Under the pieces are notes generated by a model that did not search any database, was not told the origin of the DNA, and worked only from the letters and a program-made list of their open reading frames with translations. Shown here piece by piece: positions 43,743-47,498 of a stretch of DNA of 64,000 nucleotides (the stretch's first letter is position 1; each line of letters begins with the position of its first letter). Origin of the DNA: Actinomadura hallensis (GTDB lineage Bacteria; Actinomycetota; Actinomycetes; Streptosporangiales; Streptosporangiaceae); the NCBI RefSeq assembly GCF_006716765.1, contig NZ_VFPO01000001.1, positions 2,852,001-2,916,000 of the forward strand, in the 5' to 3' direction. The translations under genes and the position numbers were made by a program.

Positions 43743-45206
43743 ATGACGGCATCCGGTGGGATCGCGCGACCGCAGGGGTCCCCAGAGGGGGAGGGGCCGG
43801 CGCGACCCGGGGCCGTCGCCCTGCTCCTCGCGTCCGCGGCCGCCGTCGGCGGCTTCCTGTTCGGCTTCGACTCCTCGGTGATCAACGGGGCGGTCGAGGC
43901 GGTCGAGGGCCAGTTCGACCTCACCCCCTTCGTCGTCGGGTTCGTCGTCTCGTCGGCGCTGCTCGGCTGCGCCCTCGGCGCCTGGGTCGCGGGGCCGCTC
44001 GGCGACCGCGTCGGCCGCGTCCGGGTCATGCTGATCACCGCCCTGCTCTTCGTGATCAGCGCGCTCGGCTCCGCGCTCGCCGTCGGCCCCGCCGACCTGA
44101 TCGTCTGGCGGATCACCGGCGGCCTGGCCATCGGCGCCGCGTCCGTGATCGCCCCCGCCTACATCGCCGAGGTCGCCCCCGCCCGGCTGCGCGGCCGCCT
44201 CGGCTCGCTCCAGCAGCTGGCGATCGTCCTCGGCATCTTCACGGCCCTCGTCGCCGACTACGTCATCGCCCGCGTGTCCGACGGCGGCGCGTCCGGGAGG
44301 TTCCCCCTGGGCGGCACTGCGTGGCGGTGGATGTTCGCCAGCGAGCTCGTCCCCGCCGTCCTGTACGGGGTGATCGCGCTGACCATCCCCGAGTCGCCCC
44401 GCTACCTGGTGAAGAAGCGCCGGACGGACGAGGCCCGGGACGTGCTGAGGCGCGTCATGCGCCGCTCCGAGGTGGACGCCAAGGTCGAGGAGATCTCCCG
44501 GTCGCTCGCCGAGGCCCGGCCGGTCCGCCTGAGCGACCTGCGCGGCCCCCGCCTCGGGCTGCTGCCGATCGTCTGGGTCGGCGTCCTGCTGTCGGTGTTC
44601 CAGCAGTTCGTCGGCATCAACGTGATCTTCTACTACTCGACCTCGCTGTGGCAGTCGGTGGGGTTCTCCGAGGGCGACGCCCTGTTCACCTCCGTGATCA
44701 ACTCGCTGGTGAACGTGGTGTTCACGCTCGTCGCGATCGCGCTCATCGACCGGATCGGACGGCGCCCGCTGCTGCTCGGCGGCGCCGCCGGCATGGCGGT
44801 CTCGCTCGGCGTCCTCGCCGTCTGCTTCGCCACCGCGCCCGTCGTGGACGGCGAGCCGGTCCTCGGGGACGTCGCCGGGCCGGTCGCGCTGGTGGCCGCC
44901 AACACGTTCGTCGCCTCGTTCGCCGCCACCTGGGGCCCGGTGGTCTGGGTGATGCTCGGCGAGATGTTCAGCAACTTCATCCGCGCCTCCGCCCTCGCCG
45001 TCGCCGCCGCCGCGCAGTGGATCGCCAACTTCCTGATCACCACGACGTTCCCGGCGATCTCGGGGGTCTCCCTCGGCCTCGCCTACGGCCTCTACACGGC
45101 GTTCTCCGTCTCGGCGCTCCTGTTCGTCCTCCGCGCCGTCCCCGAGACCAAGGGGCGCGAGCTGGAGGAGATGGACGCGCTCACATCGCCGAGGGCACGC
45201 GCGTAA
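43743..45206 (+). CDS. Sugar porter MFS transporter
   Basis: 487 residues and twelve predicted membrane segments. The sugar-porter signatures are complete: GFLFGFDSSVINGAV, DRVGRVRVM, GGLAIGAASVIAPAYIAEVAPARLRGRLGS (in parts PAYIAEVAPARLRGR), PESPRYL, QQFVGINVIFYYS and PETKGRELEEMD. It is a proton-sugar symporter of the XylE/GalP type; the exact sugar is unknown. It stands alone between a methyltransferase and the thrS leader. Confidence 0.92.
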   Translation: MTASGGIARPQGSPEGEGPARPGAVALLLASAAAVGGFLFGFDSSVINGAVEAVEGQFDLTPFVVGFVVSSALLGCALGAWVAGPLGDRVGRVRVMLITALLFVISALGSALAVGPADLIVWRITGGLAIGAASVIAPAYIAEVAPARLRGRLGSLQQLAIVLGIFTALVADYVIARVSDGGASGRFPLGGTAWRWMFASELVPAVLYGVIALTIPESPRYLVKKRRTDEARDVLRRVMRRSEVDAKVEEISRSLAEARPVRLSDLRGPRLGLLPIVWVGVLLSVFQQFVGINVIFYYSTSLWQSVGFSEGDALFTSVINSLVNVVFTLVAIALIDRIGRRPLLLGGAAGMAVSLGVLAVCFATAPVVDGEPVLGDVAGPVALVAANTFVASFAATWGPVVWVMLGEMFSNFIRASALAVAAAAQWIANFLITTTFPAISGVSLGLAYGLYTAFSVSALLFVLRAVPETKGRELEEMDALTSPRARA

Positions 45207-45233
45207 ACGCGTGCGGCGCCCGCGGCCGTCGCA

Positions 45234-45246
45234 TACAGTGGGGACC
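45234..45246 (+). promoter_or_regulatory. Leaderless promoter of the thrS leader
   Basis: TACAGT (45234-45239) with 7 nt to the ATG of the leader peptide, and no ribosome site between, so transcription probably starts at the ATG. Confidence 0.5.
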
Positions 45247-45309
45247 ATGCCGCACGTCATCGAGACGACGACGCCGGGTCACTCCCGGCGCGCACGCGGC
45301 ATGTCCTGA
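45247..45309 (+). CDS. Threonine-rich leader peptide of thrS
   Basis: A 20-codon frame, [12 protein letters not shown] followed by SRRARGMS and TGA, with three consecutive ACG threonine codons at 45265-45273. It lies between a leaderless promoter and a strong hairpin upstream of threonyl-tRNA synthetase. A hairpin CGCCGGG (45272-45278) / CCCGGCG (45284-45290) begins right after the Thr codons. This is the layout of a peptide-type attenuator: a ribosome slowed by scarce charged tRNA-Thr would cover the first arm. Existence of the peptide is inferred, not shown. Confidence 0.7.
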
Positions 45310-45316
45310 ACATCGC

Positions 45317-45359
45317 AAGCGGCAGGGCCCCGGGAGCCGATCCCGGGGCCCTGCCGCTT
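45317..45359 (+). terminator. Attenuator hairpin upstream of thrS
   Basis: Perfect 19-bp arms, AAGCGGCAGGGCCCCGGGA (45317-45335) and its complement at 45341-45359, with a 5-nt loop, followed by TT. It starts 8 bp past the leader stop. CTCCCGG (45282-45288) in the leader can pair with CCGGGAG (45330-45336) in the left arm, giving an alternative antiterminator fold when the early hairpin is opened. There is no long U-tract, usual for actinomycetes. Confidence 0.8.
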
Positions 45360-45515
45360 TGCGGGGCGGTTCCCCGGGAACCGGCGCCGGGCCCTCCGGA
45401 CCGAGAGGAGCGGCCGATGGCGCCGGATGCGTCCGGCGGGCACCCCGAGTCGATAGCATCGGGAACCGCCGAACCGAACCTTCCACGTCCTGACCGAAAA
45501 CTGCGAGGAGTACCC

Positions 45516-47498
45516 GTGTCCACCGTGTCGGAGCTGCGCATCACCCTCGACGGGAGCGAGCGGGCGGTGCCGGTGGGCGCCACCGCGGGTCAGGCCCTCG
45601 GCGCCGACGGCCGCACCGTGATCGCCGCCCGGGTGAACGGCGAGCTGCGCGACCTCGAGACCGAGCTGCGCGACGGCGACGTCGTCGAGCCGGTGGAGAT
45701 CGGCTCCGACGACGGCCGGGCGATCATGCGGCACTCCGCCGCGCACGTGATGGCGCAGGCCGTCCAGGAGCTGTTCCCCGAGGCCAAGCTCGGCATCGGC
45801 CCGCCGGTGGAGAACGGCTTCTACTACGACTTCGACGTCCCCGAGCCGTTCACCCCCGAGGACCTCAAGCGCATCGAGAAGCGGATGCGGGAGATCATCA
45901 AGCAGGGGCAGCGGTTCTCCCGCCGGGCCGTGTCCGACGACGAGGCCCGCGCGGAGCTGGCCGACGAGCCCTACAAGCTGGAGCTGATCGGCCTCAAGGG
46001 CGGCTCCGCCGAGGAGGCGGCCGAGGGCGCCGGCGTCGAGGTCGGCGACGGCGAGCTGACCATCTACGACAACCTCGACGCCAAGACCGGCGAGCTGCGC
46101 TGGAAGGACCTGTGCCGCGGCCCGCACCTGCCGTCCACCCGCGTCATCCCCGCGTTCAAGCTGATGCGCACCGGCGGCGCGTACTGGCGCGGCAGCGAGA
46201 AGAACCCGCAGCTCCAGCGGATCTACGGCACCGCCTGGGAGTCCCGCGAGAAGCAGGACGAGTACCTGCGGTTCCTGGAGGAGGCCGAGAAGCGCGACCA
46301 CCGCCGGCTCGGCGCCGAACTGGACCTGTTCTCGTTCCCCAGCGAGATCGGCAGCGGCCTGGCCGTCTTCCACCCCAAGGGCGGCGTCGTCCGCCGCGTG
46401 ATGGAGGACTACTCCCGCAGGCGCCACGAGGAGGGCGGGTACCAGTTCGTCAACACCCCGCACATCACCAAGGGCGACCTGTTCGAGGTCTCCGGGCACC
46501 TCGGCTGGTACCGGGACGACATGTTCCCGCCGATGGAGGTCGACGGCGGCGACTACTACCTCAAGCCGATGAACTGCCCGATGCACAACCTGATCTTCGG
46601 GGCGCGCGGGCGGTCCTACCGCGAGCTGCCGCTGCGGCTGTTCGAGTTCGGCTCGGTGTACCGGTTCGAGAAGTCGGGCGTGGTGCACGGCCTCACCCGC
46701 GTCCGCGGCATGACCCAGGACGACGCGCACATCTACTGCACCAAGGAGCAGATGGGCGACGAGCTGAAGAACCTGCTCGCCTTCGTCCTCGACCTGCTGC
46801 GCGACTACGGGCTCAGCGAGTTCTACCTGGAGCTGTCGACCCGCGACGACTCGCCGAAGTTCATCGGCGACGCGGCCGACTGGGAGGAGGCGACCGAGGC
46901 GCTGCGCCGCGCGGCGGAGGAGTCCGGCCTCGACCTCGTCGACGACCCGGGCGGCGCCGCGTTCTACGGCCCGAAGATCTCCGTGCAGGCCAGGGACGCC
47001 ATCGGCCGGAACTGGCAGCTGTCCACCATCCAGGTCGACTTCAACCAGCCCAAGCGCTTCGAGCTGGAGTACCAGGCCGCCGACGGGAGCCGGCAGCGGC
47101 CCGTCATGATCCACCGGGCGCTGTTCGGGTCGATCGAGCGGTTCTTCGGCGTGCTGCTGGAGCACTACGCGGGCGCGATGCCGCCGTGGCTGGCGCCGGT
47201 CCAGGCCGTCGGCATCCCCATCGCCGACGCCCACGTCCCGCACCTGGAGAAGGTCGCCGCCAGGCTCCGCGAACGCGGCATCCGCGTGGAGGTCGACGCC
47301 TCCGCCGACCGGATGCAGAAGAAGATCCGCAACGCGCAGAAGCAGAAGGTCCCGTACATGCTGCTCGCGGGGGACGACGACGTCGCCAAGGACGCGGTGT
47401 CGTTCCGGTACCGCAGCGGCGAGCAGAAGAACGGCGTCCCGATCGCCGAGGCGGTCGACGAGATCGTCAAGGCGGTCGAGGCCCGGATCCAGATCTGA
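45516..47498 (+). CDS. thrS: Threonine--tRNA ligase
   Basis: 660 residues. In order: TGS domain ([20 protein letters not shown]), the editing domain with HSAAH (His73-His77), the class II core with MNCPMHN (zinc ligand Cys354) and [10 protein letters not shown] in the anticodon-binding domain. It attaches threonine to tRNA-Thr. The GTG at 45516 is chosen for GAGGAG 5 nt upstream; an in-frame ATG at 45417 would extend it without similarity. Expression is probably set by the upstream leader. It opens the conserved thrS-HIT-pgsA-acyltransferase-pimA order known from mycobacteria. Confidence 0.97.

Follow-up and report, generated by a model that had tools for sequence, protein, structure and literature searches.

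A threonine-codon leader peptide and mutually exclusive RNA hairpins upstream of thrS in Actinomadura: a probable ribosome-mediated attenuator with relatives across the Actinomycetes

In Actinomadura hallensis, the gene for the canonical threonyl-tRNA synthetase (ThrRS), thrS, is separated from a sugar-transporter gene on the same strand (43743-45206) by a spacer at 45207-45515. All positions are those of the window, the whole 64-kb stretch of DNA that was analyzed. A sequence-only reading had described in this spacer a leaderless 20-codon frame with three adjacent Thr codons, a perfect 19-bp hairpin before thrS and a 7-bp alternative pairing with one arm of that hairpin, and all three were found at the positions listed in Table 1. 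It had also placed an early hairpin exactly after the Thr codons; the hairpin is present, but its 5' edge falls inside the third Thr codon.

Table 1. Features of the thrS upstream region (window coordinates)
Feature	Position	Strand	Remarks
-10 box TACAGT of distal promoter (P1)	45234-45239	+	Read from sequence; promoter activity inferred
Leaderless leader ORF, 20 codons	45247-45309	+	Read from sequence; translation predicted
Possible outer helix, AUGCCGC (45247-45253) with GCGGCAU (45296-45302)	45247-45302	+	Minimum free energy (MFE) structure
Three tandem Thr codons, ACG ACG ACG	45265-45273	+	Read from sequence
Hairpin 1 (regions 1:2), CGCCGGG (45272-45278)-UCACU-CCCGGCG (45284-45290)	45272-45290	+	7 bp
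Antiterminator region 2, CUCCCGG	45282-45288	+	Pairs with 45330-45336
Terminator-like hairpin (regions 3:4), 45317-45335 with 45341-45359, loop GCCGA	45317-45359	+	Perfect 19 bp
Antiterminator region 3, CCGGGAG	45330-45336	+	Pairs with 45282-45288
Shine-Dalgarno GAGAGGAG and in-frame ATG (45417)	45403-45419	+	Possible 33-residue N-terminal extension of ThrRS
-10 box TAGCAT of proximal promoter (P2), within conserved CGATAGCATCG	45454-45459	+	Probable, promoter-like
thrS, canonical threonyl-tRNA synthetase, GTG start (45516), Shine-Dalgarno 45505-45510	45516-47498	+	Reading frame

The -10 boxes of S. lividans have the form TAnnnT and lie 4-9 nt upstream of the transcription start (PMC8079986); the TACAGT box is separated from the leader ATG by 7 nt. 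When both strands of the window were searched for leaderless short ORFs (TANNNT, 4-9 nt spacing, ATG or GTG start, 8-40 codons), the leader was the only one found. Thr is encoded in the window genes by ACC (60%) and ACG (37%). The RNA from 45247 to 45370 folds at -86.6 kcal/mol with a z of -7.1, and none of 200 shuffles was as good. The elements of the window leader are far from chance.

Next, we examined the leader in related genomes. Close homologues of thrS are present in 60 of 60 Actinomadura genomes, and a leaderless Thr uORF precedes the canonical thrS in all 60 sampled species, together with its frame, its stop position, both hairpins and the alternative pairing. The Thr run is intact in 57 of them, as ETTTPG, TTTPG or a close variant such as TTTPD, and carries one substitution in the other three (L011 TTA, L017 TAT, L131 TET). 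In L111 and L112 the uORF starts further upstream and is likewise preceded by a TAGCAT box. Among the aligned leaders, the spacing from TANNNT to the start codon is 6 nt in 45 species, 7 nt in 17 and 9 nt in one, and the start is ATG in 58 and GTG in 5. The stop codon exchanges between TGA (58) and TAG (7) in 65 leaders, 61 of which keep a distance of 15 codons from Thr to stop. ACG fills the first and third Thr codons of all 65 leaders; at the second codon, 53 leaders have ACG and 8 have ACC. The third is always ACG because it is part of hairpin 1; the invariance of the first is not explained by pairing, and it may point to the ACG-reading tRNA as the one that is sensed.

The hairpins are conserved as well, with compensatory changes. 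Both comparative checks proposed in the sequence-only reading, for kept Thr codons and for compensation in the hairpins, speak for the attenuator. In 61 aligned leaders the whole structure had more cells paired than every slid version and every shuffle. The lower stem of the terminator-like hairpin covaries (UA/AU/CG, GC/AU, AU/GC) and its upper stem is invariant. Hairpin 1 hardly changes: 99% of its cells are paired in the 61 sequences, and two of these carry one double change, from a G-C to an A-U pair. For the antiterminator pairing 90% of cells are paired vs 29-73% for slid versions; taken alone it has no significant covariation in the aligned leaders since it hardly varies. Invariant segments that each have two partners, next to a lower stem that covaries freely, are what a three-way switch would predict. 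In most species of the genus, a CAU close to the 3' end of the leader ORF offers a further pairing partner for its start codon. In the window this outer helix could possibly hide the start codon in untranslated RNA, as judged from the folding model. The longest within-species stem averages 5.44 bp vs 4.67 bp when partners are shuffled among species (0 of 5000 shuffles as good, kinship ignored), and one half of the helix is weakly conserved in the aligned genus leaders. With relatedness uncontrolled, the outer helix is suggestive only.

The CUCCCGG/CCGGGAG pairing is an alternative to hairpin 1. Computed structures indicate that the protector (1:2), antiterminator (2:3) and terminator (3:4) pairings are mutually exclusive, and that region 1 would lie under a stalled ribosome. 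We calculated pairing probabilities on transcripts ending just past region 3, with 28 nt masked as the ribosome, for 63 thrS leaders and 38 leaders of the paralogue thrS2 described below. Placing the A site on Thr codon 1 or 2 gives a median antiterminator probability of 0.99 and 0.95, respectively, for the thrS leaders and of 1.00 for the thrS2 leaders. It drops to 0.29 (thrS) and 0.00 (thrS2) without a ribosome and to 0.37 and 0.00 with the ribosome at the stop codon. The window leader gives 0.95 when the ribosome sits on either of the first two Thr codons and 0.01 otherwise. The effect is smaller for a ribosome on Thr codon 3, where region 2 is partly covered. All of these values describe truncated RNAs at equilibrium, and they are silent on whether the antiterminator outlasts the arrival of the terminator 3' arm.

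The arrangement of these parts makes ribosome-mediated transcription attenuation of thrS likely, and we favor this reading with good confidence. Transcription from P1 would start at the leader AUG and a ribosome would initiate on the leaderless message. When Thr-tRNA is plentiful, the ribosome would pass the three ACG codons and hairpin 1 would form behind it, leaving region 3 free, so that the 19-bp hairpin could form and transcription would stop before thrS. When Thr-tRNA is scarce, the ribosome would stall on the first or second ACG and cover the 5' arm of hairpin 1; the freed 3' arm would then bind the upper part of the terminator 5' arm and delay the terminator, and RNA polymerase would enter thrS. 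The sequence and the comparison among genomes show the component parts, how well they are kept and how they can pair in alternative ways; stalling, termination and induction are what we infer from them.

Several points count against this model. The sequence-only reading had all parts of a classical attenuator in place; the ORF, the hairpins and the alternative pairing are there, and the terminator-like hairpin lacks a proper U-tract. The near-missing U-tract was absent from that description: the 19-bp stem is followed only by UUU-GCGGGG in the window, and the aligned leaders have a mean of 2.5 T in 9 nt over the stem end. Intrinsic termination is therefore uncertain. Furthermore, the antiterminator blocks only the top of the 19-bp stem; the 12-13 bp below could pair all the same and push the antiterminator aside. 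The computed terminator always wins at equilibrium, and thus the attenuation model depends on kinetics. The missing U-tract would favor a different step, in which the leader responds to threonine through Rho access, mRNA processing or stability, or translation of an extended ThrRS. In mycobacteria, leaderless sORFs with Cys runs are named as translation attenuators (Canestrari 2020, in the passage of PMC13236596 that cites it), and leader processing is described as important for B. subtilis thrS induction (Condon 1996, as cited in a passage of PMC10126417). On the other hand, the hairpin is under strong structural selection with its region 3 matched to region 2, and at 20-180 nt from the thrS start it is a poor fit for sequestration of the Shine-Dalgarno sequence. 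We consider such a non-intrinsic step unlikely.

How much of thrS transcription the attenuator would govern is a separate question. A promoter-like box, also absent from the earlier description, lies between the hairpin and thrS (P2, Table 1); species of the genus that have the space for it keep it, and it is also conserved, as GGTAGCATCG, in related genera without the leader. The box is absent in some species whose hairpin is close to thrS (L007, L008, L014, L015, L018 and L135 among others), which seem to rely on the leader promoter alone. In the window, P2 is probably a basal, unattenuated promoter of thrS, and part of the transcription probably escapes the attenuator through it. Such a bypass would count against full control, so that the claim that the attenuator controls thrS, which the comparison among genomes supports, probably applies to only part of the transcription. 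The conservation of the P2-like box in genus and class could mean that thrS is transcribed mainly from P2, with the P1 leader minor or condition-specific and its effect on ThrRS levels small. We regard this as possible, although rather doubtful: in L007, L008, L018 and L135 among others, the interval from hairpin to thrS is too short for P2 and the leader is kept. This explanation would make the effect smaller and leave the attenuation mechanism in place.

The two promoters may also differ in their product. The ATG at 45417 lies 99 nt upstream of the thrS GTG in the same frame, and a Shine-Dalgarno sequence with such an ATG is in frame with thrS in 43 of the 44 species that have one, at nine different distances. 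This suggests that readthrough from the distal promoter, and from that promoter only, would yield a longer ThrRS.

To see how far the leader extends beyond the genus, we ran a covariance model built from 45 Actinomadura leaders on 396 genomes of the class. Weak matches (below about 40 bits) were discounted as generic GC-rich hairpins. Strong matches outside the genus directly precede a second, shorter ThrRS gene (thrS2), whose product shares about 42% identity with the window ThrRS over the catalytic half of the latter. ThrRS genes of many families carry the leader. The thrS2 leader peptide reads M[KQ]RA..TTTPE.VPAR-stop, with the same ACGACGACGCCGG hairpin and a CCCCGGGG hairpin. Hairpin 1 is kept before thrS2 as CGCCGG...CCGGCG. 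The 5-bp core of the antiterminator pairs in 103 of 103 leaders from both ThrRS families (all 7 bp in 62); in most cases the outer pair is C-G in thrS leaders and G-C in thrS2 leaders. The RNA of the hairpin 1 3' arm is conserved and is read in different frames, ..VPAR-stop before thrS2 and ..SRRDGRMS-stop before thrS, which indicates selection on the Thr codons and on RNA folding, not on the remaining peptide.

In the family sample (61 genomes from 60 genera), thrS2 occurs in 20 genomes and is preceded by the leader in 19 of them, including G080. The leader stands before the canonical thrS in nine genomes, none of which has thrS2; thrS2 is thus present in 0/9 vs 20/52 (Fisher p = 0.024, relatedness uncorrected). 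The leader is found on one gene or the other among the 61 genomes, never on both. A search of the window genome, where the leader precedes the canonical thrS, found no thrS2; a single copy was seen in 36 sampled members of the genus, and it is broken. No leader was found before the canonical thrS of the Streptomyces genomes examined. Several side observations were made in the course of this survey. Many Actinomycetes have a thrS2 that carries a Thr leader of its own (L246-L271, L290-L303). The thrS2 frame appears broken in G026 (L276) and G117 (L297), the latter with its leader still intact. In L289, near 1480-1640, a Thr leader (MAYGHASTTTPGVPRRDAA-stop) with an imperfect hairpin has no ThrRS gene downstream in the sequence examined, and is possibly an orphan leader.

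The survey also bears on other explanations of the 19-bp hairpin. Because the transporter gene lies on the same strand with its end at 45206, and is found upstream of thrS in most of the genus, the hairpin could be its ordinary 3' terminator and the short ORF incidental. Leader and hairpin persist in species where no adjacent transporter homologue was found (L009, L010, L022, L118, L136, L137, L143, L147, L148 and L157), and they recur before thrS2 in unrelated surroundings. Nor can a transporter terminator account for the conserved Thr codons, -10 spacing, stop codon and hairpin 1. We rejected this very improbable reading on the basis of synteny and of the leader in front of thrS2. Control of thrS by a T-box, as in Firmicutes, or by a ThrRS-binding operator, as in E. 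coli, is well established, and either might have occupied this spacer in place of a peptide leader. The conserved thing is a Thr ORF predicted to be translated, and the T-box covariance model (RF00230) gave no match in the genome, which ruled out a T-box leader. An Rfam scan of the leader found no family at the gathering score and only chance-level matches below it. The chance that a T-box or an operator acts here is close to negligible, and the peptide attenuator stands as the preferred reading.

We concluded that the comparative evidence gives good support to a Thr peptide attenuator before the housekeeping thrS, akin to the leader of thrS2 in S. lividans. A broader proposal, which we put forward only tentatively, is that a single mobile or ancestral Thr attenuator serves the inducible ThrRS gene of Actinomycetes, namely the spare thrS2 if there is one and the housekeeping thrS in genomes lacking it, and that the attenuated distal and constitutive proximal promoters of Actinomadura would also give two ThrRS isoforms, the longer one only under Thr stress. 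These results would broaden the record of peptide attenuation in actinobacteria, in which one S. lividans case was listed, to a Thr-sensing element that spans the class and has no Rfam family. They offer a clean comparative case of one regulatory leader on either of two paralogous synthetases, not both, and the two-promoter layout, together with the species that lack the second promoter, leads to testable predictions. ThrRS is the target of the natural product borrelidin, which makes an inducible form of the enzyme in antibiotic-producing soil bacteria interesting with regard to self-protection.

Among known systems, the E. coli thr operon leader (RF00506) senses Thr-tRNA by ribosome stalling on Thr codons, and also senses Ile. 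The stalling on Thr codons is the same as proposed here, but the E. coli leader controls biosynthesis genes, and its family was not matched by the present leader. In B. subtilis, T-box leaders control thrS and thrZ, two ThrRS genes induced by threonine starvation, one of which is an inducible second copy. The apparent role of thrS2 resembles that of this second copy; unlike a peptide leader, a T-box RNA senses uncharged tRNA directly, without translation. Attenuators have been described for trpS and leuS of Streptomyces, and no conserved structure for actinobacterial threonine operons (Seliverstov et al., 2005, PMC1262725). Like them, the region studied here combines a peptide leader and a putative terminator before an aminoacyl-tRNA synthetase gene, for a different amino acid.

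The closest relative is in S. lividans TK24, where a leaderless thrL (MKRVRPFLETTPGFVPAR) is listed before thrS, with one hairpin, no U-rich stretch and a termination mechanism that could not be assigned (Droste et al., 2021, PMC8079986). The view that a thrS attenuator was undescribed in this group thus needs qualification, since thrL was listed in 2021; our literature search, with most subscription papers outside its scope, found no report for a canonical thrS or for Actinomadura. In two Streptomyces genomes the gene that follows the thrL peptide shows 76% identity to thrS2 and 43% to the window ThrRS, which identifies the described S. lividans case as the thrS2 form. The thrL-type features are found here too, namely a leaderless Thr ORF, an ACGACG(ACG)CCGG hairpin and a GC hairpin before a ThrRS gene. 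S. lividans thrL and the window share the leaderless Thr peptide, ACGACGCCGG followed by a hairpin, a GC-rich hairpin without a U-tract and a ThrRS gene downstream. They differ in that the window leader precedes the canonical thrS rather than the paralogue thrS2, its peptide extends beyond hairpin 1, in another frame, and the space between the leader and thrS holds a second promoter-like box.
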